Shown piece after piece: positions 7,566-25,025 of a stretch of 64,000 nt of DNA. Source of the stretch: an uncultured Ruminococcus sp. (GTDB lineage Bacteria; Bacillota; Clostridia; Oscillospirales; Ruminococcaceae); the NCBI GenBank assembly GCA_947178575.1, contig CAMWYX010000008.1, positions 1 to 64,000 on the forward strand. Reading direction: 5' to 3'. The notes under the pieces are model-generated. The model made no database searches and was not told where the DNA came from. It saw nothing but the letters and a program-made list of their open reading frames with translations. The first letter of the stretch is position 1; each line of letters begins with the position of its first letter. The position numbers and the translations under genes were made by a program.

Positions 7566-7705
7566 AGAATCCATCCTTTCCGATTTCGGCAACTTTTAAT
7601 ATTGATAAAACACATTCAGGTGATAATCAACAAGTCTGCCGGATTATTTCGCTTTTGCAGGAGCTTAATTACTATCCTTACCTTTATCTCCTGACCTCTA
7701 ATTAT

Positions 7706-7910: not shown

Positions 7911-9491
7911 TTATACTCCGCTTTCTCCGTAGTTTGAAAGCACACGTGCAGACGGGTCATTGACATTGCAACCGTCCCATTCCTTGTTCGGCATCCAGAA
8001 ATCAACTACCATTTCCGAATTGCCGGAATAGTGTTTCTCAAAAATTTCACGGTAAAAAAGTGATTCCTTTGTAAACGGTCGGGCGTGAGTATATTTTTTT
8101 GATTTCTCCTCAAATTCTGACTGAGTGTACTGTTCCTCGGCGTACATCTTAAGATAATCAACCATAGAATGACCTACTGCATCAGAAAACGCTGCCTTTT
8201 CACGATAGAGTATATCAGCCGGAAGATAATCGCCCTCAAAAGCATGGCGGAGCAGATATTTTCCTTTGTTATATCTGTTGAGTTTCATTTCAGGGTCAAC
8301 AGCCATGACATATTTTACGAAATCAAGGTCGCCGAAAGGCACTCTTGCTTCAAGAGAATTTACAGATATACAACGGTCTGCACGAAGTACATCATACATA
8401 TGAAGTTCACGCACACGCTTAACTGATTCTTTTTGGAACTCCTCCGCATTCGGTGCAAAATCGGTATACTTGTAACCGAAAAGCTCATCGGATATTTCAC
8501 CCGTCAGAAGAACCCTGACATCGGTCTGCTCATGGATTGCCTTGCATAACAGATACATTCCCATACTTGCCCGTATAGTTGTAATATCATATGTACCTAA
8601 AATCTGAATGACTGTTTCAAGAGAATCAATAACATCATCTTTTGTTATGATAATTTCGGTGTGTTCACTTCCGATATAATCCGCAACCTGTTTGGCGTAT
8701 TTGAGGTCAATTGCGTCGGTATTCATGCCGACAGCAAATGTTCTTATCGGCTTATCGCTTTTACGCTGTGCAACCGCACATACAAGAGATGAATCAAGTC
8801 CGCCCGACAGCAGGAATCCCACTTCCGCATCTGCCGAAAGACGTTTTTCGATACCGGTCACAAGCTTGTCGTGGATATTTCTGCATACTGTTTCAATATC
8901 ATCATGTATTATTTCTTTTACATCTGTTATATCACAATAGCAGATAAACTCACCGTCCTTGTAATAATATCCCGGAGGAAACGGCATTATTTTTTTGCAG
9001 ATTTTTGTGAGATTCTTTGCCTCGCTTGCGAAAACCATCGAGCCGTCCTCAGATTTTCCGTAATAAAGCGGACGTATTCCGATTGGGTCACGGGCAGCTA
9101 TAAATCCGTGACTTTCCGCATCATAGATTATACAGGCAAATTCCGCATCAAGCCGGCTGAACATTTCAGCACCGTATTCCTTATACATCGGGAGAAGTAT
9201 TTCACAGTCGCTGTCGCTTTTAAAAGTATATCCCTTTTTTATAAGTTCTTCACGCTGTTTAAGAAATCCGTATATCTCTCCGTTGCATACGGCGTAATTT
9301 CCGCCGAGTTCAAAAGGCTGCATTCCCTCCGGAGTAAGTCCCATAATTGAAAGTCTCTGGAATCCAAGAACTCCGTCATCAAGGTCAATAATTCTGCAAT
9401 CGTCAGGACCTCGTGAAACAGTGGCTTCCAGTCCCTCCGAAACATATTCAATACCGCCCGTTTTACCGAAATAACCCATTATTGTACACAT
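7911..9491 (-). CDS. asnB: Asparagine synthase, glutamine-hydrolysing
   Basis: 526 aa. It makes asparagine from aspartate, using glutamine-derived ammonia and ATP. The N-terminal class II amidotransferase domain starts with catalytic Cys2 (MCTIMGYFG) and has RGPDD (27-31), RLSI (46-49) and NGEIYGF (70-76). The C-terminal synthetase domain has the PP-loop SGGLDS at 229-234. Length is normal for bacterial AsnB. The start has a GGGGAG Shine-Dalgarno. It is the last gene of the glutamine operon, 37 nt after purF, so its expression should follow the ANTAR-controlled gltB promoter. No clear terminator follows before the IS605-like fragment at 7801-7853. Confidence 0.95.
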   Translation of the reverse strand: MCTIMGYFGKTGGIEYVSEGLEATVSRGPDDCRIIDLDDGVLGFQRLSIMGLTPEGMQPFELGGNYAVCNGEIYGFLKQREELIKKGYTFKSDSDCEILLPMYKEYGAEMFSRLDAEFACIIYDAESHGFIAARDPIGIRPLYYGKSEDGSMVFASEAKNLTKICKKIMPFPPGYYYKDGEFICYCDITDVKEIIHDDIETVCRNIHDKLVTGIEKRLSADAEVGFLLSGGLDSSLVCAVAQRKSDKPIRTFAVGMNTDAIDLKYAKQVADYIGSEHTEIIITKDDVIDSLETVIQILGTYDITTIRASMGMYLLCKAIHEQTDVRVLLTGEISDELFGYKYTDFAPNAEEFQKESVKRVRELHMYDVLRADRCISVNSLEARVPFGDLDFVKYVMAVDPEMKLNRYNKGKYLLRHAFEGDYLPADILYREKAAFSDAVGHSMVDYLKMYAEEQYTQSEFEEKSKKYTHARPFTKESLFYREIFEKHYSGNSEMVVDFWMPNKEWDGCNVNDPSARVLSNYGESGV

Positions 9492-9528: not shown

Positions 9529-10947
9529 TCATGCGTGAATTTTTTCATCAAATTTATTTTTTCTGCTTGCCCCCGAAACATCAACAGGATATTTTCCGGA
9601 AAAACAGCCTCTGCAGAAATCATCACTGTCAATGAGATTACAGAGCTTGTCCGCCGGAAGATATGCCAGCGAATCCGCACCTATAGCCTCGGCAATTTCC
9701 GATTCCGAACCGCAGCGGCTTGCTATGAGATTTTCCTCGCTTCCGATGTCCGTTCCGAAATAGCATGAATGGATAAACGGCGGTGACGATATGCGGACAT
9801 GAACTTCTTTCGCTCCTGCTTCACGCAGAAGTCTGATAATCCTTGCACTTGTAGTACCACGCACTATAGAATCATCTATCATGATTACACGTTTTCCGGC
9901 AACGCTTTCACGGACGGCATTGAGTTTTATTTTTACCGCACTTTCACGCTGATTCTGCTGGGGCTGTATAAAGCTTCTGCCTATGTATTTATTCTTTATA
10001 AATCCTATTCCATACGGAATACCGCTTTTTTCGGCATATCCGAGAGCAGCGTCAAGTCCGGAATCCGGTACGCCTATGACTATATCAGCATCAACAGGAC
10101 AGCAGTCCGCAAGTATTCTTCCGGCACGCACTCTCGCACCGTGAACGGATATTCCTTCAATTACGGAATCAGGACGTGCAAAATATATATATTCAAAAAT
10201 ACAGATACTTTTTTTCTTTTTTACGTGAGTACGTATGGATTTAATTTCTCCGCCACTGAAAACAACTATTTCACCGGCTTCAACATCACGTATAAATTCA
10301 GCTCCGACCGTTTCGAGCGCACATGATTCCGATGCCGTGACGTATGCACCGTCAGACGTCTTTCCGATACAAAGCGGTCGGAATCCGTCAGGGTCACGGA
10401 ATGCTATAAGTTTCTGTGCCGTCATGATTATGCACGAATACGCACCTTTTATTTCAGGCATTGCACGCTCAACGGCTTCTTCCGTAGAATGACATTTAAG
10501 ACGTTCACGCACAATGGCATATGCGATTGCTTCCGTATCGGACGTACCGTGAAATATTGCACCGGAAAGTTCAAATTCCCGTCTGAGTTCGGCGGCATTT
10601 ATGAGATTTCCGTTATGGACAAGTGCAAGATTTCCCTTGACGTGCCGTATAACAAGAGGCTGTATATTATTCGGATTTTTACCCCCGAAAGTGGAGTATC
10701 TCACGTGACCTACAGCAGAATTTCCTTTTCCGAGGTGTCCGATTTCCTCACGGCTGAAAACGTCCGAGACAAGACCGTCCGCACGTCTGTGACTGAACAC
10801 GCCGTCATCATTTACCGCAATTCCGCAGCTTTCCTGACCACGGTGCTGCAAGGCATACAATCCGAAATAGGTACTTAATGCCACATCTGCCGTCTTTTCC
10901 TCATAAATGCCGAAAACTCCGCATTCTTCATGAATTTCATTAAACAT
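9529..10947 (-). CDS. purF: Amidophosphoribosyltransferase
   Basis: 472 aa. It catalyses the first committed step of purine synthesis, converting PRPP and glutamine to phosphoribosylamine. The short propeptide MFNEIHEE precedes the catalytic Cys9 (CGVFGIY), so autoprocessing is expected. The PRPP-binding loop is VIMIDDSIVRGTTS (about 354-367). Cysteines near 249, 394, 444 and 447 match the [4Fe-4S]-containing Bacillus-type enzyme. Its position is unusual: it lies in a nitrogen operon rather than a pur cluster, 17 nt after the ANTAR regulator gene. The shared theme is glutamine as substrate. Confidence 0.95.
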   Translation of the reverse strand: MFNEIHEECGVFGIYEEKTADVALSTYFGLYALQHRGQESCGIAVNDDGVFSHRRADGLVSDVFSREEIGHLGKGNSAVGHVRYSTFGGKNPNNIQPLVIRHVKGNLALVHNGNLINAAELRREFELSGAIFHGTSDTEAIAYAIVRERLKCHSTEEAVERAMPEIKGAYSCIIMTAQKLIAFRDPDGFRPLCIGKTSDGAYVTASESCALETVGAEFIRDVEAGEIVVFSGGEIKSIRTHVKKKKSICIFEYIYFARPDSVIEGISVHGARVRAGRILADCCPVDADIVIGVPDSGLDAALGYAEKSGIPYGIGFIKNKYIGRSFIQPQQNQRESAVKIKLNAVRESVAGKRVIMIDDSIVRGTTSARIIRLLREAGAKEVHVRISSPPFIHSCYFGTDIGSEENLIASRCGSESEIAEAIGADSLAYLPADKLCNLIDSDDFCRGCFSGKYPVDVSGASRKNKFDEKIHA

Positions 10948-10964: not shown

Positions 10965-11546
10965 TTACATATACTGCTCTGCTATTCTTTCGATTATCTC
11001 AGATGCCACAATTATTTTTTTCTTCCGGTTCTTCATGGCATACTGTTCTATATATGAATGTGCTTCATCTTCCGTCATATTCCTGTACTGCATAAGCCGG
11101 AATTTAGCCTTGTCTATTAGCTTTATATCCTCGATTTTACGCTCAAGCCTTACTGTTTCCTCATAAAGTGCATATGAACGCCGTATGGAAATATTGACCG
11201 CTTTTATCACCTGATACAGAATCTGTTTTGAAAACGGCTTCGCCATAAGTATAATATCGCTTCTGTCAGCTCTTGAGCTGACTTTTTCATAACTATCGCT
11301 TTTTATAAGTACAACACAGCTTGCGGCGGTTATTTCGGAAACGTATTCCGCCAGTTCGATTCCGGTTTCGTCTGAAAGCGGACTGTTTATAAGTACAAGT
11401 TCAAATCCACGGTTTGTACTGAGTATCTCACGGGCGTGCTGTGCCGTTTCAGCTATTGTAACCTGACAGTTGAATGATTCTTTTATAAAAGCCGAAAGCA
11501 TATCCGCCGCCGAACTGCTGCTTGAAATTACAATAACATTTTCCAA
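10965..11546 (-). CDS. ANTAR-domain antitermination regulator with pseudo-receiver (NitR/AmiR-like)
   Basis: 193 aa. Residues about 1-117 fold like a CheY receiver, but the N-terminal acidic pair is replaced by a Ser run (VIVISSSSS) and the phosphoacceptor position is Asn54 (LVLINSPLSDETG). Lys103 (MAKPF) is kept. A helical linker leads to an ANTAR domain (about 134-190) with IDKAKFRLM and MTEDEAHSYIEQYAM, the RNA-binding signature. ANTAR proteins bind paired hairpins with A1/G4 hexaloops and prevent terminator formation. Loss of Asp implies control by ligand or partner protein, as in AmiR/AmiC, rather than phosphorylation. It sits between a GSI-like gene and purF. Candidate targets are the leaders at 18982-19038 and 19288-19340. 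From memory, a glnA-nitR pair is known in solventogenic clostridia. Confidence 0.9.
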   Translation of the reverse strand: MENVIVISSSSSAADMLSAFIKESFNCQVTIAETAQHAREILSTNRGFELVLINSPLSDETGIELAEYVSEITAASCVVLIKSDSYEKVSSRADRSDIILMAKPFSKQILYQVIKAVNISIRRSYALYEETVRLERKIEDIKLIDKAKFRLMQYRNMTEDEAHSYIEQYAMKNRKKKIIVASEIIERIAEQYM

Positions 11547-11558
11547 AGTGAACCTCCG

Positions 11559-12854
11559 TCACAGACTGTAGAAATATTTTTTATCTTCATACAGCTCTTT
11601 GTCATACTCCGAAGAATATTCTTTCCATTCAGATTTTGCGCTCTCCACAACTGTATCAATTACGCACTGCGGAACATATCTTTTCAGAAATTCCGAATTT
11701 TCTGCTGTCTGAGCAGCTTCGAGAAGATTTTCCGGAAGTGTTTCATAACATCTGCAATCGGGGTCAAATTTTTCAGCCATTCCGAACTTATTTTCAATTC
11801 CCTCCATTGCAGAATATATCAGAAGTCCGAATACAAAATACGGATTGCATACGCAGTCAGGCGCACGGAGTACAACAGGAGCTTCATCAATGTTATTTAT
11901 ATTAAGCTTGACAAGCTGTTCCTGCTCCTCGTCCGACCATGTAATATATCTCGGGCGTGAAAATTCACCGAAACGACTGTACGAATTTACAGTTGAATTT
12001 GTAAACACTGTGTATTCACGGATAAATTTCATTATTCCGGCAGCAGACATTTTAACGGCTTCCGAGTTGTCGGAATCAGTATCGTTGTTGAAAAAATCGC
12101 TGTCACGGAAAACATTCACGCCAATGTGCATACCGTTTCCATAATCGTTGCGAAACGGCTTCGGCATGAAACTTGCGTGTATGCCATGCTGTTCGGCTAT
12201 TGATTTTACTGCGGATTTGAAACTCAGAAAAGTATCGGCGGCCTTAAGTGCGGACGATGCATTGAAATCTATTTCATGCTGTCCGTGACCGGCTTCGTGA
12301 CGTGAAGACACGGGGTGTATGCCCATCTGTTCAAGAGTGAAACATACATCACGGCGGAAATTTTCGCCCTTGTCGTCGGGAGCTGTATCGCAATATCCTG
12401 CGTAATCATGCGGAATCTTCGTCGGCATACCGCTTTCATCATTCCGGAAAAGCATAAATTCGCTCGACGTTCCGAACCGGAAACACCAGCCCTTGCCGAG
12501 TGCCGTTTTTACCGCCTGTTTAAGAAAATACCTTCCGTCACCTTCAAACGGAGTACCGTCACCGTATCTGATATAGCAGAACATACGTATAACACGCCCG
12601 TGCTGGGGTCTCCACGGCAGAACACGCATAGTCTGAGAATCCGGATATAAATACAAATCCCGTCCGCCTGCCATTCCGAACCCGAATATCTTTTTTGCCG
12701 TAATCCTGACACCATGTTCAAAAACCGCTGTCATTTCGGACGAAAGAACAGATATATTTTTAAGTGAACCCTTTAAGTCACAAAACGTAAGCTTTACAAA
12801 TTTCACATCGTTTTCATCAATATATTGCAGAACCTCATTTTCCGTATAAATCAT
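11559..12854 (-). CDS. Type I glutamine synthetase-like protein with altered active site
   Basis: 431 aa. I chose ATG at 12854 because AGGGGGAG lies just upstream; an upstream in-frame start lacks this. The GSI fold is clear: LYLYPD (67-72), SEFMLF (131-136), GQHEIDF (191-197), FMPKPF (229-234), GNGMH (239-243), NSTVNSYSR (286-294) and CNPYF (336-340). Key catalytic segments are altered. DGSS (the Asp-bearing loop) reads FGMAGG, the flap Glu segment GYEAP reads EFSRP, and NRSPLIRIP, with substrate-binding Arg, reads EEQEQLVKL. Metal-ligand Glu and His positions look kept. It probably does not make glutamine efficiently. A glutamine-sensing or regulatory role is an inference supported by its neighbour, the ANTAR regulator, and by the true synthetase GlnN encoded at 22935. 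Confidence 0.85.
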   Translation of the reverse strand: MIYTENEVLQYIDENDVKFVKLTFCDLKGSLKNISVLSSEMTAVFEHGVRITAKKIFGFGMAGGRDLYLYPDSQTMRVLPWRPQHGRVIRMFCYIRYGDGTPFEGDGRYFLKQAVKTALGKGWCFRFGTSSEFMLFRNDESGMPTKIPHDYAGYCDTAPDDKGENFRRDVCFTLEQMGIHPVSSRHEAGHGQHEIDFNASSALKAADTFLSFKSAVKSIAEQHGIHASFMPKPFRNDYGNGMHIGVNVFRDSDFFNNDTDSDNSEAVKMSAAGIMKFIREYTVFTNSTVNSYSRFGEFSRPRYITWSDEEQEQLVKLNINNIDEAPVVLRAPDCVCNPYFVFGLLIYSAMEGIENKFGMAEKFDPDCRCYETLPENLLEAAQTAENSEFLKRYVPQCVIDTVVESAKSEWKEYSSEYDKELYEDKKYFYSL

Positions 12855-12884: not shown

Positions 12885-14369
12885 TTACAGATTGCTGTAT
12901 CCCATAAGATATTCATCAGTTTCACGGGCTGAATCCCTGCCCTCACGGATTGCACGCACGACAAGCGACTGACCGATATGCATATCCCCCGCTGTGAATA
13001 CCTTTTCGATATTTGTGGAAAATTTTCCGCCTGCTGTATTGACAGTGTTTCTGCTGTCCAGTTCAACGCCGAAAGCCTCAGCGACGTATGCCTGTGCGCC
13101 TGTAAATCCTGCGGCTATGAGACAGAGTTCACAGCTTATAATTTCCTCACTGCCCTCGATTTCTTTCGGAACCATTCTGCCCGATTCGGTATCTTTCACA
13201 AATTCAAGACGTACTGTTTTTACGGCTGTAAGATTATTTCCGTCGTCTTTTATAAATTCCTTTACAGTTGTACAGTATTTTCTCGGGTCGTTTCCGAATA
13301 CTGCTTCTGCTTCTTCCTGACCGTAATCTGTCTTGCATATTCTGGGATACTCCGGCCAAGGATTGTTGTCCGCACGTTCGTCGGGAAGTTTCGGCATCAT
13401 TTCAAGCTGAACAACCGATGCACAGCCGTGTCTTACAACAGTACCAACGCAGTCGTTTCCGGTATCTCCTCCGCCGATTACGACAACATTTTTTCCCTCT
13501 GCTGATATATAGTTATCGTCGGCAAGTGCGGAATCAAGCAGGCTTTTTGTGGTTGATTTGAGAAAATCGACCGCAAAATATATTCCGGAAGCGTCTCTGC
13601 CCTCCGCTTTTATATCACGGGGTTCAGACGAACCGCAGGCAAGAATTACCGCATCTGATTTTCCGAGTATCTCACCGGCTGATATATTATGACCTACATC
13701 GGCATTAGTGACGAACTTCACGCCCTCTGCTTTCATGATTTCAATACGGCGGTTGACGACCGATTTTTCCAGCTTCATATTCGGGATTCCGTACATAAGA
13801 AGTCCGCCTGCCCTGTCTGAACGCTCATAAACAGTAACAAAGTGTCCTCTTTTATTAAGCGTATCGGCTGCCGCAAGTCCTGCCGGTCCTGAACCGATAA
13901 CAGAAATTTTCTTACCGCTTCTGACTTTCGGGATTTCGGGTTTTATAAGACCGCTTCTGAATCCATATTCTATAATTGCGTTCTCGTTTTCCTTTACCGT
14001 AACCGGACTGCCGTTCAGTCCGCAGGTACAGGATTTTTCGCAGAGTGCTGGACAAACTCTTGATGTAAATTCCGGAAAATTATTTGTCATCAGAAGTCTT
14101 TCCAGTGCCTGCTCCTTATGGTCATGATAAAGCAAATCATTCCACTCCGGAATAAGATTGTTAAGCGGACAGCCCGAAATCATTCCGTTTATTGCCTTAC
14201 CGTTCTGACAGAACGGAACTCCGCAGTCCATACAGCGTGCCGCCTGAGCCTTTCTCTGCCTGTCTGTCAGCGGTTCGTGAAATTCGTTGTAATTCTTTAT
14301 ACGTTCCAACGGCTGAAACGCAGTATTGTCATTTCTTTCAAATTCAAGAAATCCTGTAGGCTTTCCCAT
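12885..14369 (-). CDS. gltD: Glutamate synthase, small (beta) subunit
   Basis: 494 aa. It passes electrons from NAD(P)H through FAD and iron-sulfur centres to GltB. The N-terminal ferredoxin-like region has clustered cysteines (CMDCGVPFC near 41-49, then GCPLNN, VCPALCEKSCTCG). An FAD Rossmann motif follows (VIGSGPAGLAAADTL) and an NAD(P)-binding motif (VVVIGGGDTGNDC). Length is typical. It starts 3 nt after the gltB stop, so translation is probably coupled. Confidence 0.96.
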   Translation of the reverse strand: MGKPTGFLEFERNDNTAFQPLERIKNYNEFHEPLTDRQRKAQAARCMDCGVPFCQNGKAINGMISGCPLNNLIPEWNDLLYHDHKEQALERLLMTNNFPEFTSRVCPALCEKSCTCGLNGSPVTVKENENAIIEYGFRSGLIKPEIPKVRSGKKISVIGSGPAGLAAADTLNKRGHFVTVYERSDRAGGLLMYGIPNMKLEKSVVNRRIEIMKAEGVKFVTNADVGHNISAGEILGKSDAVILACGSSEPRDIKAEGRDASGIYFAVDFLKSTTKSLLDSALADDNYISAEGKNVVVIGGGDTGNDCVGTVVRHGCASVVQLEMMPKLPDERADNNPWPEYPRICKTDYGQEEAEAVFGNDPRKYCTTVKEFIKDDGNNLTAVKTVRLEFVKDTESGRMVPKEIEGSEEIISCELCLIAAGFTGAQAYVAEAFGVELDSRNTVNTAGGKFSTNIEKVFTAGDMHIGQSLVVRAIREGRDSARETDEYLMGYSNL

Positions 14370-14372
14370 AAA

Positions 14373-17300
14373 TCAGCCCTCCTTCTTCGTAATATAGAAC
14401 GCTTCTATTTCAGCCTGTTCACTGCTCATTCCCTTTTCTTCAAGAGCAACGACTGTACTCTGTATCTTTGCATAGTCATGGGGAAGAACCTTCTTGAAAC
14501 TTCCGATATAGCTTGCGAAATCTTCAAGTATTCTTCCGGCTTTTTCTGAACCTGTGGCATTGTAATGCTCCTGAATGATATTTTTAAGTTCCATGATGTC
14601 GTATTTGTTTGTTACGGATTCAAGCGATACAAGAGATTTGTTTATTTTCATGTACAGATTTCTGTCCTCGTCAAGAACATACGCAATTCCGCCTGACATT
14701 CCGGCGGCGAAGTTCTTGCCGGTACGTCCGAGAATAACAACACGCCCGCCTGTCATATATTCACAGCCATGGTCGCCCGTACCCTCGCAGACTGCAACAG
14801 CTCCGGAATTTCTTACGCAGAATCTTTCACCTGCTATGCCGTTTATGAACGCCTTACCGCTTGTTGCACCGTAAAGAGCAACGTTTCCAGCAATGATATT
14901 GTCCTCCGCTCTGAATCCTGAATTTTCCGGCGGATAAAGTATAAGTTTTCCTCCCGAAAGACCTTTTCCGAAATAGTCGTTGCTGTCTCCGGAAAGTTCA
15001 AGCGTGAGACCTTTCGGAATGAATGCTCCGAAACTCTGACCACCGCTTCCGTGGCACTTTACGGTAAACGTATCGTCCGGAATTGCATGGTCTCCCCATT
15101 TTCTGGTAATTTCAGAACCGAAAAGCGTTCCGAACGCACGGTCTGTATTTTTAACGTTTATTTCGATTGTCTTTTTTGTTTTGTTTCTGAGAGCGGACTC
15201 AAATTCTTTAATCAGAACAGTTTCGTCAACCGTTTTTTCAAGTTCAAAATCGTAAATATCGGCAGGATTGAAACACTGTCCCGTTCCTGAATTTCCGAAA
15301 AGAATTTCGGAAAAATCAATATTTCCGCTTTCCGATTTTTTATAGAGCAGGTCTGTACGTCCGATGAGTTCGTCAACTGTACGTATACCAAGTTTTGCCA
15401 TGTATTCCCTGAGTTCCTGAGCGACGAAGTGCATGAAATTCACGATATATTCCGGTTTACCCTGAAAACGCTTTCTGAGTTCCGGATTCTGTGTAGCTAT
15501 TCCCATAGGACAGGTATCAAGATTGCAGACCCTCATCATAACACAGCCCATAGTTACAAGCGGAGCTGTTGCGAATCCGTATTCCTCCGCTCCGAGAAGT
15601 GCGGCAACAAGAACGTCACGTCCGGTCATGAGTTTGCCGTCTGTTTCAATAACAACACGTGTGCGGAGACCGTTCATTATAAGCGACTGGTGAGCTTCGG
15701 CAAGACCGATTTCCCAAGGCAGACCGGCGTTATATATCGAACTTCTCGGGGCTGCACCTGTTCCGCCGTCATATCCGGAAATCAGAATAACCTGTGCGCC
15801 TGCCTTTGCAACTCCGGCTGCAACTGTTCCGACACCTGCTTCCGAAACGAGCTTAACCGAAATTCTTGCGTTCTTGTTTGAATTTTTCAGGTCGTATATA
15901 AGCTGAGCCAAATCCTCGATTGAATAAATATCATGATGCGGAGGCGGTGAAATAAGTCCTACTCCTGCCGTTGAATGACGTGTTTTTGCAATCCACGGAT
16001 AAACCTTTCCGCCCGGAAGATGACCGCCCTCACCGGGCTTAGCACCCTGAGCCATTTTTATCTGTATCTCCTTTGCTGATACAAGATATTCGCTTGTAAC
16101 GCCGAAACGTCCGGAGGCAACCTGCTTTATTGCGGAACATCTGTCTGAGCGCAGTCTCTCCGGAGATTCTCCGCCCTCGCCGGAATTGGATTTTCCGCCG
16201 ATACTGTTCATTGCAACCGCCATACATTCGTGAGCTTCCTGAGAAATAGAACCGTATGACATTGCGCCGGTCTTGAAACGGTGGCATATACTTTCAACTG
16301 ATTCGACTTCATCAAGAGAGATTCCGCCGTTTTCGTCAAATCTGAAATCAAGGAGACTTCTGAGCGTGAGTTCATTATCCTCACGGTTGACAGCTGATGA
16401 ATATTTTTTGTAAATCTCATAATCTCCGGTTCTTGTCGCCTGCTGTAGAAAATGTATTGTTTCCGGAGTATAGAGGTGGTCACTTTTTCCGGAACGGAGC
16501 TTATGACTTCCGGAGCTTTCAAGTTCACGGTTTACGTGAAGTCCGAGCGGGTCGAATGCCGCATTATGCAGATTCTCCGTGCGTCTGCTTATATCTTTAA
16601 GAGTGATGCCGCCGATACGGCTTACAGTTCCACGGAAATATCTGTCAATAACATCTGCGGAGATTCCGACCGCTTCAAACAGCTTTGAACCCTGATACGA
16701 CTGAATCGTCGATATTCCCATTTTTGACGCAATTTTTACGATTCCGTGAAGTATTCCGTTATTATAGTCGGCTTCCGCAGCGTAGAAATCCTTGTCGAGC
16801 ATACCGGTATTGATAAGGTCACGAATAGTAGCCTGTGCAAGATACGGATTAACAGCACACGCACCGTATCCTAAAAGTGTGGCAAAATGATGAACTTCTC
16901 TCGGCTCTGCACTTTCGAGGATAATCGCCACGGCAGTACGCTTTTTGGTCGATACAAGATGCTGCTGTAATGCCGCAACCGCTAAAAGAGACGGAATAGC
17001 AGCACGGTATTCGTCAACGTCCCTGTCAGAAAGAATAAGTATATTTGCGCCGTCCCGATAGGCTTTGTCGGCATCTATGAAAAGACGTTCGATAGCACGT
17101 TCAAGGGACGTTCCTATATAATAAGTAATCGGAATAACAGCCGTTTTCAGACCGTCAACTTTCATGCTTTTGATTTTAAGCATATCTGTACTGGTGAGAA
17201 TAGGATTCTCAACTTTGAGAACATGACAGTTTTCGGGTTTTTCCTCAAGAATATTTCCGTCCTCGCCGATGTATGTGCTTGTATCTGTAACGATTTCCTC

Positions 17301-18899
17301 ACGGATAGCATCAAAAGGCGGATTCGTAACCTGTGCGAACAACTGCCGGAAATAATTGAAAAGCGGAGGATTCCCGCTGTCAAGCGGAGGAAGCGGAATA
17401 TCTGAACCCATGGAAGCTATCGGTTCTGCTCCGTTTTCAGCCATAGGCAGAATACTTGTCCGTATATCCTCATAGCTGTAGCCGAATGCTTTCTGAAGTT
17501 TTTCAAGTTCCTCGTGAGTATATGACTGAACACCCTTATTCGGAATATGAAGTTCATTGAGCTTTACAAGATTGCGGTCAAGCCATTCGCCGTAGGGCTG
17601 ACGTGATGCATAACTGCTTTTGATTTCGTCATCATCAATAAGGCGTTTCTGCTTTGTATCGGCAAGAAGCATTTTTCCCGGACGGAGACGGTCTTTTTTC
17701 ACAATCATTTCCGGCGGAATATCAATACAGCCCGTTTCAGATGAAAGAACTAAAAATCCGTCAGAAGTAAGGCAGTATCTTGACGGACGGAGACCGTTTC
17801 TGTCAAGAACAGCACCCATAACATCACCATCGGAAAACAGAATTGATGCCGGACCGTCCCATGGTTCCATCATTGTTGCGTAATACTGGTAGAAATCGTG
17901 TTTTTCCTGAGAAATTGTACGGTTGTTCTTCCACGGTTCGGGAATCGTAATCATCACGGCAAGAGGCAGAGGCATTCCGGACATCACCATAAATTCAAGA
18001 GCATTGTCAAGTCTTGCGGAATCAGAACCGTTTACATTGATAGCCGGAAGAATTTTGCTCATATCATCGCCGAAAGCTTCACAGTGGACAGTTTCTTCAC
18101 GTGCCAGCATTTTATCGGCGTTTCCGGTGATAGTGTTGATTTCTCCGTTGTGAACAATGAGCCGGTTCGGGTGAGCTTTCTGCCAGCTCGGCTGTGTATT
18201 CGTGGAAAAACGGCTGTGAACCATTGCAATTGCCGATATGAAATTATCGTCCTGCAAATCGCTGTAGAATTTTCTGAGTTCATCAACGAGGAACATTCCT
18301 TTATATACAATAGTACGGCTCGACAACGAACATACATAAGTATTTTCGTTTGCCTGTTCAAAGATACGTCTTGCGATGTATAGTTTACGGTCAAATTCAA
18401 GACCTTTTCCGCAGTCATAGGGACGTTTTACAAATCCCTGCATGATGAACGGCATACTGTCAACAGCTTTTTGTCCGAGTACAGACGGATTTGACGGAAC
18501 TTCCCTCCAGCCGAGAAATTCCATTCCCTGTTTTTTCAGGATTATCTCGAACATTTTTTTAGCCTGATTGCGTTTGAGTTCACTCTGCGGAAAAAAGAAC
18601 ATTCCTATACCGAAATCGCCGTCATTTCCGATACTGAAACCAAGTTCAGAAGTTTTATCCCTGAAAAAACCGCACGGTATCTGTGAAAGTATACCTACAC
18701 CGTCGCCTGTTTTTCCCTCCGCATCTTTTCCGGCACGATGTTCAAGCTTTTCGACTATAGTCAGTGCGTCCTGAACAACACGCCTTGACTTTTCGCCGTT
18801 TATGTTGACAACCGCACCTATACCGCAGTTATCATGTTCAAACTGAGGACGATAAAGCCCCTGTCCTTCAAATGGATTTTCTTTTCTGAAATTGTCCAT
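14373..18899 (-). CDS. gltB: Glutamate synthase, large (alpha) subunit
   Basis: About 1508 aa. It converts glutamine and 2-oxoglutarate to two glutamates. I chose ATG at 18899, which has AGAGGT about 9 nt upstream. A propeptide of about 24 residues precedes the catalytic Cys of the class II amidotransferase domain (HDNCGIGAV). The central FMN-binding barrel includes GSISQEAHE and the ammonia-tunnel region SPERLRSD. The [3Fe-4S] cysteines lie in CVMMRVCNLDTCPMG. The C-terminal GXGXG beta-helix domain has GGRVVILGRTG. First gene of a six-gene operon; its leader carries the ANTAR-type attenuator at 18982-19038. Confidence 0.97.
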   Translation of the reverse strand: MDNFRKENPFEGQGLYRPQFEHDNCGIGAVVNINGEKSRRVVQDALTIVEKLEHRAGKDAEGKTGDGVGILSQIPCGFFRDKTSELGFSIGNDGDFGIGMFFFPQSELKRNQAKKMFEIILKKQGMEFLGWREVPSNPSVLGQKAVDSMPFIMQGFVKRPYDCGKGLEFDRKLYIARRIFEQANENTYVCSLSSRTIVYKGMFLVDELRKFYSDLQDDNFISAIAMVHSRFSTNTQPSWQKAHPNRLIVHNGEINTITGNADKMLAREETVHCEAFGDDMSKILPAINVNGSDSARLDNALEFMVMSGMPLPLAVMITIPEPWKNNRTISQEKHDFYQYYATMMEPWDGPASILFSDGDVMGAVLDRNGLRPSRYCLTSDGFLVLSSETGCIDIPPEMIVKKDRLRPGKMLLADTKQKRLIDDDEIKSSYASRQPYGEWLDRNLVKLNELHIPNKGVQSYTHEELEKLQKAFGYSYEDIRTSILPMAENGAEPIASMGSDIPLPPLDSGNPPLFNYFRQLFAQVTNPPFDAIREEIVTDTSTYIGEDGNILEEKPENCHVLKVENPILTSTDMLKIKSMKVDGLKTAVIPITYYIGTSLERAIERLFIDADKAYRDGANILILSDRDVDEYRAAIPSLLAVAALQQHLVSTKKRTAVAIILESAEPREVHHFATLLGYGACAVNPYLAQATIRDLINTGMLDKDFYAAEADYNNGILHGIVKIASKMGISTIQSYQGSKLFEAVGISADVIDRYFRGTVSRIGGITLKDISRRTENLHNAAFDPLGLHVNRELESSGSHKLRSGKSDHLYTPETIHFLQQATRTGDYEIYKKYSSAVNREDNELTLRSLLDFRFDENGGISLDEVESVESICHRFKTGAMSYGSISQEAHECMAVAMNSIGGKSNSGEGGESPERLRSDRCSAIKQVASGRFGVTSEYLVSAKEIQIKMAQGAKPGEGGHLPGGKVYPWIAKTRHSTAGVGLISPPPHHDIYSIEDLAQLIYDLKNSNKNARISVKLVSEAGVGTVAAGVAKAGAQVILISGYDGGTGAAPRSSIYNAGLPWEIGLAEAHQSLIMNGLRTRVVIETDGKLMTGRDVLVAALLGAEEYGFATAPLVTMGCVMMRVCNLDTCPMGIATQNPELRKRFQGKPEYIVNFMHFVAQELREYMAKLGIRTVDELIGRTDLLYKKSESGNIDFSEILFGNSGTGQCFNPADIYDFELEKTVDETVLIKEFESALRNKTKKTIEINVKNTDRAFGTLFGSEITRKWGDHAIPDDTFTVKCHGSGGQSFGAFIPKGLTLELSGDSNDYFGKGLSGGKLILYPPENSGFRAEDNIIAGNVALYGATSGKAFINGIAGERFCVRNSGAVAVCEGTGDHGCEYMTGGRVVILGRTGKNFAAGMSGGIAYVLDEDRNLYMKINKSLVSLESVTNKYDIMELKNIIQEHYNATGSEKAGRILEDFASYIGSFKKVLPHDYAKIQSTVVALEEKGMSSEQAEIEAFYITKKEG

Positions 18900-18981
18900 T
18901 ACAGTAACACCTCTCATTTTTTATTTATTTTTATGCTTAACTCTCCCCGTTCAGCCCCATTGCTGAAACATTACATATAAG

Positions 18982-19038
18982 CAAAAAAATAAAGAACGTC
19001 CGCAACAGACAAAAAGCCCGTCATGAACGTCCTTGTTC
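18982..19038 (-). promoter_or_regulatory. ANTAR-type attenuator in the gltB leader (hairpin overlapping terminator)
   Basis: At the expected 5' end of the minus-strand transcript is GAAC-AAGGAC-GTTC (19038 to 19025). This is a 4-bp hairpin with a hexaloop having A at position 1 and G at position 4, the ANTAR recognition pattern. Starting from the loop, AAGGACGTTCATGACGGGC (19034-19016) pairs with 19010-18992 around a TTTTT loop. The stem is 19 positions with one mismatch and several G-T pairs, followed by a TATTTTTTT tract. The two structures are mutually exclusive. Only one A1/G4 hairpin is evident, whereas described ANTAR targets usually have two. Confidence 0.75.
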
Positions 19039-19044
19039 TGTATC

Positions 19045-19247: not shown

Positions 19248-19276
19248 TTGACAAATCGGAGGAAAGAGTATATAAT
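19248..19276 (+). promoter_or_regulatory. Sigma-A promoter of the amtB-pyrG-glnN operon
   Basis: TTGACA (19248-19253), a 17-bp spacer and TATAAT (19271-19276) match consensus perfectly. Transcription should start near 19283, just ahead of the ANTAR-type hairpin. A perfect core promoter fits control after initiation, by attenuation. Confidence 0.88.
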
Positions 19277-19287
19277 AGCATTGTAAA

Positions 19288-19340
19288 CAGCAAGGGCGCT
19301 GCGGATTGTTAAAACATTCTGTAGTTCCCTTTTTTATTTT
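19288..19340 (+). promoter_or_regulatory. ANTAR-type attenuator in the amtB leader
   Basis: CAGC-AAGGGC-GCTG (19288-19301) is a 4-bp hairpin with an A1/G4 hexaloop. From inside the loop, GGGCGCTGCGGA (19294-19305) pairs with TCTGTAGTTCCC (19318-19329) as a 12-position stem with one mismatch, followed by a long T tract. The recognition hairpin and the terminator are therefore mutually exclusive, exactly as in the gltB leader. The loops share the start AAGG. Confidence 0.78.
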
Positions 19341-19341
19341 T

Positions 19342-19424
19342 GTACAAAGATAAATATTATACACAATGGGGTGTATGATTTCCGGTGGCTGTAATTTTCC
19401 GGAATATCATATACCCCTTTGTAC
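19342..19424 (+). promoter_or_regulatory. Second structured leader element upstream of amtB
   Basis: GGGGTGTATGATTTCCGG (19368-19385) pairs with 19399-19417 almost perfectly (18 bp, one bulge). The flanking GTACAAAG (19342-19349) pairs with CTTTGTAC (19417-19424), closing an outer stem. It lies between the attenuator terminator and the amtB Shine-Dalgarno (19453-19459). Only three T follow the inner stem, so it is not a typical terminator. It could protect the 5' end or bind a regulator. I do not recognise it as a known riboswitch. Confidence 0.5.
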
Positions 19425-19466
19425 TTGTTTCCGGAACAGGTGCTCAATTCAAGGGAGGTAATTATC

Positions 19467-21290
19467 ATGGCAGAAATATCTCAGGAACTTATAGACGTTA
19501 TCGAAAGCGTCGCCGGTGCTAAGGTTTTCGGTGTATGGTTCTTGATAGCTGTATCGCTGGTGTTCTTTATGCAGGCTGGATTCGCAATGGTTGAAACCGG
19601 ATTCACACGGGCAAAGAATGCAGGAAACATAATCATGAAAAATCTTATGGACTTCTGTATAGGTACAGTGATGTTCATACTTATAGGATTCGGGCTTCTT
19701 CTCGGCGAGGACTGTATGGGTCTTATCGGAAAACCCGGTTTCGACATATTCACATCATACGACAATTTTGATTTTTCCAATTTTATATTCAACCTTGTTT
19801 TCTGTGCAACGACAGCTACAATCGTTTCCGGAGCTATGGCAGAAAGAACAAAATTTCTTTCATACTGCGTATATTCCGGAGTTATAAGCGCACTGATATA
19901 TCCGATTGAGGCACACTGGATTTGGAACTCTGACGGCTGGCTTTATCAGCTCGGATTTCATGATTTATCCGGTTCATGTGCAATTCACATGGTAGGCGGA
20001 ATTTCGGCTCTTGTAGGTGCTTCAATACTCGGGGCACGTATCGGAAAATTCACCAAAACAAAAAACGGAGAAATAAAAGTAAACGCTATCCCCGGTCATA
20101 ATCTCACAATCGGAGCACTGGGCGTGTTTATTCTCTGGTTCGGCTGGTACGGATTCAACCCTGCCGCTTCCCAGACAACAGAAATGCTCGGTTCAATCTT
20201 CCTTACAACAACTATAGCTCCTGCTATAGCAACAGTTGTGTGCATGGTGTTTACATGGCTCAAATACGGCAAACCTGATGTTTCGATGTGTCTCAACGCT
20301 TCCCTTGCCGGTCTGGTAGGAATCACAGCAGGCTGTGATGTTATGGACGCTTTCGGTGCGATAATGGTCGGCGTTGTTTCCGGACTTCTTGTATGCTTCG
20401 GCGTATGGTTCTTAGATTATGTACTTCATGTTGATGACCCCGTGGGAGCTGTTGCGGTTCACATGATGAACGGCTTGTGGGGAACAATAGCGGTAGGTCT
20501 TTTCGCTACAGATAAAGCTCCCGGATTTGCAATCGCTCAGGCAGGCGGAGCAAGCGGAATCGCCGGAAAAGGTCTTTTCTACGGTGGTGGGTTTGAACTT
20601 CTCGGAAAACAGCTTCTGGGCATTCTGGCAGTCGGTACATGGACAGCAGTCACAATGACAATAGTATTTTTCGTAATTAAAAAGACTATCGGTCTCCGTG
20701 CGACAGAACAGGAGGAAATCCTCGGACTTGACATAACAGAACACGGACTCGTCAGCTCTTATGCGGATTTTGCTCCGTCACTCGGCGATATTTCAATGCA
20801 GGGCTACACAAAGGACGATGCGAAATCGGTTCAGAAAGTTCCTGTAAACGAAGCCGTGGAAGTAAAAAATTATTCAGTTCCGAATGTTGACGGCACTCCG
20901 AAAATGACGAAAGTCGTTGCCGTATTCAAACAGCAGAAATTACAGGATTTCATTCAGGCAATGGAATCCATACAGATTACTGGAATCACTGTCACGAACG
21001 TTCTCGGCTGTGGTATGCAGAAAGGTCAGAAACAGAAATATTATCGTGGTGCTAAAATAGAAATGAATCTTCTGCCGAAAATAAAGGCTGAAATTGCAAT
21101 ATGTGCAGTTCCGGTTGACCGTGTTATAGATGCAGCACGTGCTTCGCTCTATACTGGAAACTACGGAGACGGAAAACTTTTCATCTATGACATTGAAAAC
21201 GTTATTAAAATCCGTACCGGCGAGGAAGGTTATGCGGCTTTGCAGGATTCGGAAGAAGAAAACAAAATTCTTATGGGAGCATCAAACTGA
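19467..21290 (+). CDS. amtB: Ammonium transporter fused to a PII signalling domain
   Basis: 607 aa. I chose ATG at 19467, with GGGAGGT 7 nt upstream; the longer frame from 19419 has no such site. Residues about 20-425 are an Amt/Mep/Rh channel of about 11 membrane helices with the paired pore histidines His174 (AIHMVGG) and His332 (AVHMMNG). After a linker of about 50 residues, the last about 115 residues form a PII domain (KMTKVVAVFKQQKL onward) whose T-loop has QKGQKQKYYRGAK. Tyr526, just before RGA, corresponds to the modifiable Tyr51 of GlnB/GlnK. Separate PII proteins normally plug AmtB from the cytoplasm; here the plug is tethered. First gene of an ANTAR-attenuated operon. Confidence 0.95.
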   Translation: MAEISQELIDVIESVAGAKVFGVWFLIAVSLVFFMQAGFAMVETGFTRAKNAGNIIMKNLMDFCIGTVMFILIGFGLLLGEDCMGLIGKPGFDIFTSYDNFDFSNFIFNLVFCATTATIVSGAMAERTKFLSYCVYSGVISALIYPIEAHWIWNSDGWLYQLGFHDLSGSCAIHMVGGISALVGASILGARIGKFTKTKNGEIKVNAIPGHNLTIGALGVFILWFGWYGFNPAASQTTEMLGSIFLTTTIAPAIATVVCMVFTWLKYGKPDVSMCLNASLAGLVGITAGCDVMDAFGAIMVGVVSGLLVCFGVWFLDYVLHVDDPVGAVAVHMMNGLWGTIAVGLFATDKAPGFAIAQAGGASGIAGKGLFYGGGFELLGKQLLGILAVGTWTAVTMTIVFFVIKKTIGLRATEQEEILGLDITEHGLVSSYADFAPSLGDISMQGYTKDDAKSVQKVPVNEAVEVKNYSVPNVDGTPKMTKVVAVFKQQKLQDFIQAMESIQITGITVTNVLGCGMQKGQKQKYYRGAKIEMNLLPKIKAEIAICAVPVDRVIDAARASLYTGNYGDGKLFIYDIENVIKIRTGEEGYAALQDSEEENKILMGASN

Positions 21291-22907
<1,617 letters not shown>

Positions 22908-22934: not shown

Positions 22935-25025
22935 ATGGAAAAAATTACTGATTACTTCGGCTCAATGGTATTTGACGACAGAGTTATGAAGGCTCGTCTT
23001 CCCGAAAAGGTTTATAACAGTCTAAAGGAAACTATCGACAAAGGAACTCCTCTTGATTCTTCCGTTGCAAATTCGGTGGCAGCCGCAATGAAAGACTGGG
23101 CAGTCGAAAAGGGCTGTACACACTATACGCATTGGTTTCAGCCTCTCACCGGTCTGACCGCCGAAAAACACGACAGCTTTATAACACCGTCTCCCGATGG
23201 TCGTGTACTTATGGAATTTTCCGGAAAAGAACTCGTAAAGGGCGAACCCGATGCCTCATCGTTCCCGTCCGGCGGACTCCGTGCGACTTTTGAAGCCCGT
23301 GGATATACGGCATGGGACCCTACATCATACGCATTCATCAAAGACGGCACACTTTATATTCCGACTGCTTTCTGTTCGTATACCGGAGAAGCTCTTGATA
23401 AAAAAGTTCCTCTCCTCCGTTCAATGGACGCTATCAACAGGCAGGCTTTACGTATACTCAGACTTTTCGGAAATGATAAAGTTCAGGTTGTAAAAACATC
23501 TGTAGGTCCTGAACAGGAATATTTCCTCGTTCCTGCCGAACTCTACGAACAGCGTAAAGACCTTATCATGAGCGGACGCACGCTTTTCGGTGCAATGCCT
23601 CCGAAAGGTCAGGAAATGGAAGACCATTATTTCGGCACTATCAAGCAGAAAGTTTCCGAATATATGGCTGACCTCGACAAAGAACTCTGGAAACTCGGAA
23701 TCCTTGCAAAGACAAAGCATAACGAAGTCGCTCCGGCACAGCACGAACTTGCTCCGATATACAGCACTACAAATATTGCTACCGACCACAATCAGCTTAC
23801 CATGGAAGTAATGCAGAAAGTCGCCAAGAAACACGGTCTTGTATGCCTGCTTCATGAAAAACCTTTTGCCGGTGTGAACGGTTCGGGAAAACACAACAAC
23901 TGGTCGATTTCAACAGATACCGGAGTAAATCTGCTTTCTCCCGGAGATACACCGCACGAAAACGCACAGTTCCTGCTGTTCCTCTCTGCTGTAATAAAGG
24001 CTGTTGACGATTATCAGGATTTGCTCCGTCTCTCGGTTGCAACAGCCGGAAACGACCACAGACTCGGTGCAAATGAAGCTCCTCCGGCTGTTATTTCGAT
24101 TTTCCTCGGCGATGAACTTACTGCCGTTCTGGACGCAATAGAAAATGATACACCTTACGGCGGAACTAAAAAAGAAAGAATGCAACTCGGCGTTGATGTT
24201 CTGCCAAAATTCCGCAAGGATACAACCGACCGCAACAGAACTTCTCCGTTTGCTTTCACCGGAAATAAATTTGAATTCCGTATGCTCGGCTCATCAAACA
24301 GTATTTCATGTGCAAATATTCATCTTAATGCTGCCGTTGCGGAAGTTCTCAGACAGTTCGCCGACGAACTTGAAAAAGCCGACGACTTCAACACGGCTCT
24401 CCACGAACTCATCAGGAGAACAATCAAGGAACACAAGAGAATAATATTCAACGGCAACGGCTACGACGATGCGTGGATTGCAGAAGCCGAAAAGCGTGGC
24501 CTGCTCAATCTCAAGACAACCGCCGATGCTATGCCGAAAATCTGCGACAAGAAAAACGTTGATATGCTTACGTCTCACGGAATATTCACAGAAGCCGAAA
24601 TTTATTCACGCTGTGATATAATGCTTGAAAACTATATCAAGGCAGTCAATATTGAAGCACTCACCATGATAGATATGGCACGCAAAGAAATAATTCCGGC
24701 TGTTTCAAGATTCACAGCAGATACTGCTTCGGCTGTAGCTTCAAAGTGCGGAGTCGTTTCTGTTGCCTGCAAATACGAAAAACGCCTTATAACAATGCTT
24801 TCAGACCTCACCGATGAAATGGACGAGGCAGCAAATGCTCTTGAGGGTGCTGTTGCAGAACTCAAAACAATTGACAACACTATCAAGGCTTCCGAGTTTG
24901 TACGTGACAGTATTCTTCCGAAAATGGATACCCTCCGTACCGCTGCCGATAAGGCGGAAACCGTAACGGCTGAGGATTACTGGCCGTTTCCGACATACGA
25001 CAAACTCCTTTTCGGAGTAAAATAA
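22935..25025 (+). CDS. glnN: Glutamine synthetase type III
   Basis: 696 aa. It forms glutamine from glutamate, ammonia and ATP. Length (about 700 aa) and the N-terminal region (FGSMVFDDRVMKARLP) are characteristic of GSIII, found in Bacteroides, Ruminococcus and cyanobacteria. Catalytic-region motifs are visible: GPEQEYFLV, HNEVAPAQHELAP, GVNGSGKHNNWS, GNDHRLGANEAPP and NRTSPFAFTGNKFEFR. In contrast to the GSI-like protein at 11559, the flap and substrate-binding segments look intact, so this is likely the working synthetase. ATG follows GGAGAG. Last gene of the amtB operon, with a strong terminator after it. Confidence 0.96.
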   Translation: MEKITDYFGSMVFDDRVMKARLPEKVYNSLKETIDKGTPLDSSVANSVAAAMKDWAVEKGCTHYTHWFQPLTGLTAEKHDSFITPSPDGRVLMEFSGKELVKGEPDASSFPSGGLRATFEARGYTAWDPTSYAFIKDGTLYIPTAFCSYTGEALDKKVPLLRSMDAINRQALRILRLFGNDKVQVVKTSVGPEQEYFLVPAELYEQRKDLIMSGRTLFGAMPPKGQEMEDHYFGTIKQKVSEYMADLDKELWKLGILAKTKHNEVAPAQHELAPIYSTTNIATDHNQLTMEVMQKVAKKHGLVCLLHEKPFAGVNGSGKHNNWSISTDTGVNLLSPGDTPHENAQFLLFLSAVIKAVDDYQDLLRLSVATAGNDHRLGANEAPPAVISIFLGDELTAVLDAIENDTPYGGTKKERMQLGVDVLPKFRKDTTDRNRTSPFAFTGNKFEFRMLGSSNSISCANIHLNAAVAEVLRQFADELEKADDFNTALHELIRRTIKEHKRIIFNGNGYDDAWIAEAEKRGLLNLKTTADAMPKICDKKNVDMLTSHGIFTEAEIYSRCDIMLENYIKAVNIEALTMIDMARKEIIPAVSRFTADTASAVASKCGVVSVACKYEKRLITMLSDLTDEMDEAANALEGAVAELKTIDNTIKASEFVRDSILPKMDTLRTAADKAETVTAEDYWPFPTYDKLLFGVK

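Follow-up and report, generated by a model that had tools for sequence, protein, structure and literature searches.

A maintained glutamine synthetase-like pseudoenzyme encoded beside a pseudo-receiver ANTAR regulator: a candidate nitrogen switch in a Ruminococcus-like bacterium

Several regulators that carry an ANTAR domain have been described as working with a partner that is encoded alongside them. AmiR is a pseudo-receiver that is not phosphorylated, and AmiC and NasS restrain their respective ANTAR partners, AmiR and NasT. A review describes NitR as antiterminating the genes for glutamine synthetase (GS) and glutamate synthase (GOGAT) at nitrogen limitation, and the title of a paper on Clostridium thermocellum states that deletion of a type I glnA (Clo1313_2031, numbered next to the ANTAR gene Clo1313_2030) deregulates nitrogen metabolism; one-line accounts of that deletion mention less amino-acid secretion and more ethanol. 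In the Bacilli, a feedback-inhibited GS (FBI-GS) reports glutamine to TnrA and GlnR, and in the GS-GlnR case GS activates the regulator. Here we analyze a stretch of 64,000 nucleotides from an uncultured Ruminococcus sp. (contig CAMWYX010000008.1, positions 1 to 64,000; hereafter the window), in which a gene for a type I GS-like (GSI-like) protein that has lost catalytic residues is followed directly by a gene for an ANTAR regulator that lacks the usual phosphoacceptor. The genome, labelled G000, is Ruminococcus-like and 90.9% complete. To our knowledge, nitrogen sensing in Clostridia outside the GlnR/TnrA and NtrC worlds is poorly known, and we propose, with a probability of roughly 0.6, that this pair constitutes an AmiC/AmiR-like nitrogen switch in which the (pseudo-)GS would serve as the sensor.

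The two genes are separated by 12 bases and have the coordinates and lengths given in a preliminary description of this DNA:

11559..12854, minus strand: pseudo-GS ("type A"), a type I glutamine synthetase-like protein of 431 aa (Pfam, residue alignment)
10965..11546, minus strand: ANTAR regulator with a pseudo-receiver (Asn54), 193 aa, TTG start (Pfam, alignment)

The 431-aa protein contains the domains and fold of GSI, with Gln-synt_C (PF00120) at 237.6 bits and Gln-synt_N (PF03951) at 53.5 bits, but its score of 264 bits against the curated GlnA model TIGR00653 lies below the cut-off of 429. Its residues were read by alignment with the solved GS 8ufj, in the Salmonella GS numbering and with the active-site roles that we take to go with it. 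Six of the 12 core catalytic residues are lost (D50 to T, E129 to S, E327 to S, R339 to Q, R344 to K, and E357 to V), and E131, E212, E220, H269, R321, and R359 are retained. The preliminary description had held that the protein keeps the GSI fold and lacks active-site residues, and both points are borne out, including the absence of the flap Glu (E327) and of the Arg residues R339 and R344. Its further statement that the metal-site Glu and His residues are kept holds for the n1 site, whose ligands E131, E212, and E220 are complete, but not for the n2 site, where two of the three ligands, E129 and E357, are gone.

These losses recur among the homologues. In the 120 proteins listed from 2833 at E<=1e-60, D50, E129, E327, and R355 are retained in none and R339 in four; R321, R359, H269, G265, E220, and H210 are present in all 120, E131 in 119, and E212 in 114. 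S53 has become Lys in 119, as E129 has become Ser in 119, and two positions vary: R344 is Arg in 78 and Lys in 41, and E357 is Glu in 58. The named homologues among the 120 are nearly all labelled Ruminococcus, with one Prevotella. Within the genus, 31 window-type rows (30 distinct, the window itself included; the best 30 of 43 listed) have all lost D50, E129, E327, and R355 and all carry Lys at S53, and E131, E220, H210, G265, H269, R321, and R359 are retained throughout. Chance or sequencing error as the source of the losses is ruled out by their repetition across the 120 listed homologues. Judged from the residues, the amino-acid pocket and the n1 metal are kept, and the ammonium site, the flap, and several phosphate/ATP and n2 residues are gone. 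Compared with its nearest relative in the genus sample (96% identical), the pseudo-GS gene has a nonsynonymous rate (dN) of 0.018 and a synonymous rate (dS) of 0.635 by YN00, a dN/dS of about 0.03 that indicates strong purifying selection; the ANTAR gene is under weaker constraint (dN 0.055, dS 0.258 by YN00, against the relative with the 96%-identical GS). For more distant GS pairs the YN00 dS was saturated or not computable. Because three of the six losses (D50, E129, and E327), together with that of R355, are fixed in the 120 listed orthologues and dN/dS is about 0.03, the 431-aa protein is, by its sequence, a maintained pseudoenzyme, with a residue set that should not support catalysis.

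The 193-aa regulator matches the ANTAR domain PF03861 with 54.6 bits (cut-off 27.3) and the solved ANTAR proteins 1s8n, 6wsh, and 1qo0, and its match to Response_reg, at 22.7 bits, is under the cut-off of 30.2. Asn54 occupies the phosphoacceptor position and a run of Ser replaces the acidic pocket, so that the protein lacks the marks of a phosphorylated response regulator, as had been supposed from its sequence. In 74 ANTAR proteins linked to a GSI-like gene (see below), the phosphoacceptor column contains Asn in 65, Asp in one, and another residue in eight. Asn is found in 38 of the 42 that stand by a degenerate GS and in 27 of the 32 that stand by an intact one; the pseudo-receiver is thus a trait of the whole GS-linked ANTAR clade, whatever the state of the GS. 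A coupled decay of the GS and the receiver Asp was considered and rejected, since the receiver is degenerate beside both intact and lost GS. An ANTAR protein of the same family survey that is eut-linked, with EutA alongside, retains the phosphoacceptor Asp (L007).

The survey from which these proteins come covered 119 genomes of the family in 118 genera, and 82 GSI-like genes were examined (80 regions, the window, and a locus of the window genome, L001, discussed below). In 74 of the 82, an ANTAR gene lies downstream on the same strand, within 106 bases in 73; in the exception, L107, it is 703 bases off with an open frame of 233 codons in between. The two genes therefore travel as a unit. All eight GSI-like genes that have no ANTAR gene encode 12 of 12 core residues. 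Of the 74 linked GSs, 32 retain all 12 and 42 do not, the commonest loss being that of the flap Glu (36/74). On the GS tree, which is a quick tree with many weak inner branches, the 74 linked GSs form one clade (support of 96 by the Shimodaira-Hasegawa-like approximate likelihood ratio test, SH-aLRT; one change), and the window pseudo-GS falls in a degenerate clade of six (support 96). The label intact or lost changes 12 times on this tree by parsimony, and well supported branches force three of the changes; such counts do not by themselves separate loss from gain. The three main degenerate GS groups are each one clade on the ANTAR tree as well (6 rows, support 94; 8 rows, 91; 17 rows, 99), and GS and ANTAR distances correlate with r = 0.53, compared with at most 0.18 in 999 permutations, although part of this correlation must stem from shared species history.

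Similar linkage was seen in two further samples. ANTAR adjoins GS in 30 of 30 window-type rows of the genus, with the window counted as one. A scan of genome contigs with the ANTAR alignment, whose query was built from GS-linked ANTARs and so biases the sample, retained 80 loci of at least 580 relatives; a GS gene lies upstream on the same strand in 73 of the 80 (67 by the rule of the script and 6 with overlapping stop-to-stop frames taken from the printed list). The other seven comprise three loci cut by contig ends and four without an upstream GS (L153, L190, L193, and L220, the last with about 1 kb of upstream sequence covered). Of the 67 GSs of this sample that were aligned, 23 have 12/12 residues and 44 do not, two of the latter being truncated frames. 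Among the bearers of degenerate linked GSs are Agathobaculum massiliense, Ruminococcus callidus, and R. flavefaciens. Members of an Agathobaculum/Butyricicoccus group (L177, L187, L194, L201, L218, and L219) share lesions of their own (D50N, E129A, E357K, and loss of R344), by their sequences another route to a dead GS; a Butyricicoccus record, L217, retains 12/12 core residues. GS-ANTAR pairs also appear in records titled Treponema, Spirochaetales, or Spirochaetaceae (L200, L180, L178, and L181), groups distant from Clostridia, possibly through transfer or as mis-binned contigs.

Since the 74 linked GSs form one clade in which 32 are intact and 42 are not, the partnership is probably older than the catalytic loss: it would have come first, with an intact GS, and catalysis would have been lost several times inside it. 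Clostridia widely carry such a pair, and the simplest account of its origin starts from an intact GS. The preliminary description had seen the essential novelty in the pairing of two degenerate proteins, a claim that is not supported: the finding that it named as a refutation, an ANTAR gene of this kind next to an intact GS, occurs in the 32 loci (judged by the 12 residues); the AmiC/AmiR-like partnership that it suggested is still the best reading, given the conserved pair, with the difference that degeneracy of both proteins is not essential to it.

The window genome contains a second pseudo-GS/ANTAR pair, on contig C2 (L001, 916-2979), whose lesions differ from those of the first. Of the 49 genomes listed with this type, 21 were sampled (L001 and 20 of the remaining 48), and ANTAR adjoins GS in 21/21 rows. 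In every row E129 is Lys or Arg, E212 is Lys, H269 is lost, and no Glu is aligned at E327; D50, E131, E220, R344, E357, R321, and R359 are retained in every row, R339 in 12, and R355 in 14. The phosphoacceptor of the second-type ANTAR is Asn in 13 of the 21 and Asp in one. Among 60 genomes of the genus listed, the window type (at least 64% identity) is found in 43, the second type in 49, and both in 38. The window genome yielded no intact GSI, and its two other GS matches lie in frames of type III size. A frame resembling ribosomal protein L1 lies upstream of the second pair on the same strand.

The first pair is part of a minus-strand run in the order gltB, gltD, GSI-like gene, ANTAR gene, purF, and asnB, from which a plus-strand run of amtB-PII, pyrG, and glnN diverges:

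14373..18917, minus strand: gltB, large subunit of glutamate synthase, first gene of the run (Pfam domains)
12885..14369, minus strand: gltD, small subunit of glutamate synthase (Pfam domains; named also from its position beside gltB)
9529..10947, minus strand: purF, amidophosphoribosyltransferase, downstream of the ANTAR gene and co-directional
7911..9491, minus strand: asnB, glutamine-hydrolysing asparagine synthase, downstream and co-directional
19467..21290, plus strand: amtB, encoding a single protein that joins an ammonium transporter to a P-II domain
21312..22907, plus strand: pyrG, the glutamine-using CTP synthase (Pfam domains)
22935..25025, plus strand: glnN, type III glutamine synthetase (GSIII), 27 bases past pyrG

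The start of amtB was placed at the ATG past terminator T2 (19467), the mechanical start of the open reading frame being 19419. The glnN product is likely the working glutamine-making enzyme of this genome. Adjoining this nitrogen island is a gene for a 2019-aa protein with a Peptidase_M60 domain (window 1533-7592, minus strand).

Both nitrogen operons of the window open with terminator leaders in which the 5' arm can refold into a hairpin with an A/G hexaloop. The amtB leader (19276-19430) consists of tandem hexaloop/terminator units, and the gltB leader (18950-19040) has one such unit and an extra hexaloop:

19248..19276, plus strand: sigma-70-type promoter ahead of amtB, a consensus match only (12/12)
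19288..19301, plus strand: hexaloop hairpin H1 of the amtB leader, CAGC-AAGGGC-GCTG
19292..19331, plus strand: terminator T1, the 5' arm of which includes the H1 loop and 3' arm (-20.2 kcal/mol, z -4.0)
19357..19378, plus strand: hexaloop hairpin H2, TATACAC-AATGGG-GTGTATG, with one more pair
19368..19417, plus strand: terminator T2, mutually exclusive with H2 (-31.4 kcal/mol)
18993..19033, minus strand: strong terminator hairpin of the gltB leader (z -6.4 for the whole leader)
19025-19038, minus strand: hexaloop GAAC-AAGGAC-GTTC, overlapping the 5' arm of the gltB-leader terminator
18950..18967, minus strand: second hexaloop of the gltB leader, TTCAGC-AATGGG-GCTGAA, with no clear terminator partner

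In published work the ANTAR target was first defined as a dual hexaloop, and a single hexaloop was later identified as the minimal binding unit. A hexaloop with A at position 1 and G at position 4 that overlaps a terminator, the mark of an ANTAR target, is what the window leaders contain. The window has two matches to the pattern CAGCAANGGNGCTG (0.09 expected), one in each of the two leaders. In 13 genomes (the window genome and 12 relatives, nine of the 13 in one genus) the pattern gives 24 matches, compared with four for the reversed control pattern, and these comprise 10 amtB leaders (one cut off), the gltB leader of the window, and 13 sites elsewhere. H1, H2, and both terminators are present in all nine whole amtB leaders, which were chosen by this pattern and come from seven genomes; the H1-H2 distance is 43-56 nucleotides (nt), and the terminators instead pair 7-10 of the 10 H1 bases and 12-13 of the 13 H2 bases. 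A scan of the whole window for overlaps of hexaloop and terminator found three sites, compared with 0.3 per strand in shuffles; two are the amtB and gltB leaders, and the third is weak and far away. When the window was scanned under strict criteria for dual hairpins, each strand had one match, in neither case followed by a T-run; an Rfam search of the window gave no match.

The scan was extended to 160 related loci (1.31 Mb, with some places included twice), in which 96 matches were found over both strands and eight in one shuffled strand. Loops of the form A..G.. account for 95 terminator overlaps and permuted loops for 15-30; for AA.GG. the numbers are 62 and 0-2. After removal of identical copies there were 66 AA.G[GA]. 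sites, 14 of which have no gene in reach. At 51 of the remaining 52, the next gene has one of 12 assignments (GSIII, linked GS, pyrG, N-acetyl sugar amidotransferase, gdhA, gltB, asnA, carA, glmS, amt, nadE, and dapL), for the most part from short motifs in the sequence and visual inspection, and at the other it is an ANTAR gene. NCBIfam models, applied to ten such genes, named eight: carA, pyrG, WbuX, dapL, gdhA, glmS, and nadE scored over the cut-off, and the partial frame of asnA scored below it. For the examples of GSIII and gltB there was no match at 1e-20. Taken together, the leaders suggest control of ammonium uptake and of glutamine-using genes, the pair itself included.

The proposed switch builds on what can be read from the DNA (the residue set, the purifying selection, the pseudo-receiver, the linkage, and the leader structures) and adds to it a contact between GS and ANTAR, a ligand, a sign of regulation, and the supposition that these leaders would be read by this ANTAR protein rather than another. 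The usual phosphorylation being closed to the ANTAR protein, contact with the GS-fold protein encoded by the neighboring gene would set its activity. At high nitrogen a ligand (most likely glutamine, perhaps glutamate) would occupy the retained amino-acid pocket of the GS-fold protein, which in this state would keep the ANTAR protein inactive. At low nitrogen the latter would be freed to bind the hexaloop hairpins in nascent leader RNA, and, once bound, would block the overlapping terminators and so permit transcription of gltBD, the pair itself, amtB-PII, pyrG, and glnN. Enzyme activity may persist in the linked GS of the 32 of 74 surveyed relatives with an intact residue set, whereas in several lineages, that of Ruminococcus among them, catalysis would have been lost and sensing kept, with type III GS making the glutamine. 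A starvation response despite high glutamine is reportedly seen in the C. thermocellum glnA deletion. As the sensor that a partner-controlled pseudo-receiver needs, the GS-fold protein is the strongest candidate, because the GS gene stays adjacent even after the loss of catalysis; glutamine is the likeliest ligand of the window-type pseudo-GS by analogy with GS-GlnR/TnrA and because the amino-acid pocket is kept; and the sign, release at low nitrogen, is suggested by the restraint that AmiC and NasS exert and by the title of the C. thermocellum paper.

Several observations weigh against this proposal. Shared regulation, with or without the proposed GS-ANTAR contact, would likewise bring the two genes together into an operon. 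All 12 residues are present in the 32 intact cases, so that catalysis is compatible with the pair. By match counts, genomes with a degenerate pair all have another match to the GS family, as do all those with an intact pair, so that a second GS permits but does not explain the loss of catalysis; its presence was accordingly abandoned as a predictor of decay. ANTAR-bearing genomes of the family without a linked GSI number 15 of 85, and five of the seven ANTAR proteins examined from GSI-less genomes lack the Asp (L020, L023, L011, L027, and L019), so such proteins manage without a GSI and something else governs them there. As to the RNA, the gltB-leader hairpin is present in three of nine loci examined (the window, L229, and L242; in L242 the outer pair shows a compensatory change), and none of the 66 AA.G[GA]. 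sites has an upstream AA.GG. hairpin (stem of at least 4, 45 nt upstream); these are therefore leaders without a nearby P1 hairpin of the eut system. That hairpin is described as required in Enterococcus faecalis, and two hexaloops at short distance as still necessary for antitermination. Loci with no GSI beside the ANTAR gene include, in addition to the four of the named-genome sample, L011, L012, L020, L023, and L027. The ANTAR genes of L012, L020, L023, and L027 adjoin GXGXG (glutamate synthase) or dapF genes, and the receiver of L012 is very degenerate.

Such GSI-less cases, together with the presence of gltB, gltD, purF, and asnB in the same gene run, lend some credit to the idea that the GS-fold and ANTAR proteins share an operon simply as products of nitrogen-metabolism genes. 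The pseudo-GS would then have another job, structural, ligand-buffering, or regulating GOGAT or GSIII, and the ANTAR protein would be governed otherwise, by the AmtB-fused P-II for example. We consider this unlikely, though it is the alternative that most deserves attention: the ANTAR gene is the immediate neighbor of 73 of the 82 GSI genes of the family, the two families co-segregate as pairs on the trees, and the C2 pair, on another contig and with no gltBD within the 3.9 kb examined, has the same neighbor in 21/21 rows. It is also conceivable, if rather improbable, that the GS-fold protein activates the ANTAR protein, e.g. by serving, when charged with glutamate, ATP, or 2-oxoglutarate at low nitrogen, as a platform for its assembly. 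GS does activate GlnR, so the sign is not dictated by the fold; the ANTAR partners AmiR and NasT, however, are restrained, and the type I glnA deletion of C. thermocellum is reported, in a title, to deregulate.

Residual catalysis is much less probable still. GSI-fold ligases for other amines exist, and the window protein could be, e.g., a gamma-glutamyl ligase for an amine; it scores 172.7 bits against the NCBIfam model for gamma-glutamylputrescine synthetase, far below the cut-off of 650. An ATP-dependent glutamyl ligase of the GS fold should need the n2 ligands, R355, and the flap Glu, and all of these are lost. The two GS-like paralogues bear different lesions and might complement each other in a mixed oligomer, but Glu is present at E129 or E327 in no row of either type examined; both versions were rejected on the residue losses in the two paralogues. 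That the pair consists of decaying, functionless pseudogenes, as the many lost catalytic residues could suggest, was likewise rejected and has a negligible chance of being right, as it is contradicted by the dN/dS of about 0.03, by full-length frames, and by fixed substitutions such as S53 to Lys in 119/120.

If the proposed switch exists, the survey yields a concrete circuit of sensor, antiterminator, and RNA targets for a large group of gut and rumen bacteria. We give about even odds to the broader idea that it represents an unrecognised class of metabolite sensor, in which GS has, on several independent occasions in Clostridia, given up catalysis and become a ligand sensor dedicated to a pseudo-receiver antiterminator, and in which the two parallel Ruminococcus pairs could read different signals. 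The window type keeps the amino-acid pocket and the n1 site, and the C2 type keeps R344, E357, and D50; because the window type loses the nucleotide side and the C2 type the metal ligands E129 and E212, the signals could be, e.g., glutamine and adenylates. A single conserved pair that spans, in nature, every grade between an intact and a dead enzyme makes the conversion of enzyme to sensor directly testable, and an annotation as glutamine synthetase in these genomes may not denote an enzyme.

How, then, does the locus relate to the systems with which we began? Like AmiC-AmiR of P. aeruginosa and NasS-NasT of P. denitrificans, in which a receiver-type ANTAR is described as held by a co-encoded ligand-binding partner, the window has a pseudo-receiver ANTAR co-encoded with a partner. 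AmiC is a solute-binding-type protein; since the candidate partner here has the GSI fold, it may work like AmiC but is no AmiC. NasS, too, is described as resembling NrtA, of the solute-binding type. The TnrA/GlnR circuit of the Bacilli has a DNA-binding regulator with a GS-binding C-tail and a GS that remains an enzyme, whereas the linked regulator here is an RNA-binding receiver-ANTAR and the GS, by its residues, a pseudoenzyme. EutV/EutW and the eut leaders share the hexaloop with A1 and G4 that overlaps a terminator stem, but EutV/EutW has a phosphorylated receiver and a histidine kinase where the window ANTAR has a pseudo-receiver, and the eut leaders carry dual hairpins 5-12 nt apart where the leaders here have a single hexaloop per terminator. 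The closest arrangements are glnA-nitR of Clostridium saccharobutylicum and Clo1313_2030-2036 of C. thermocellum, which likewise combine an ANTAR gene with type I GS and GOGAT genes; in published descriptions of these, the GS is treated as an enzyme, whereas the window GS has lost catalytic residues. A description of a dead GS paired with ANTAR was not found among the titles and abstract beginnings of the open PubMed Central subset. The glnA-ANTAR arrangement itself is already in print; what looks new is the repeated conversion of the linked GS to a pseudoenzyme.

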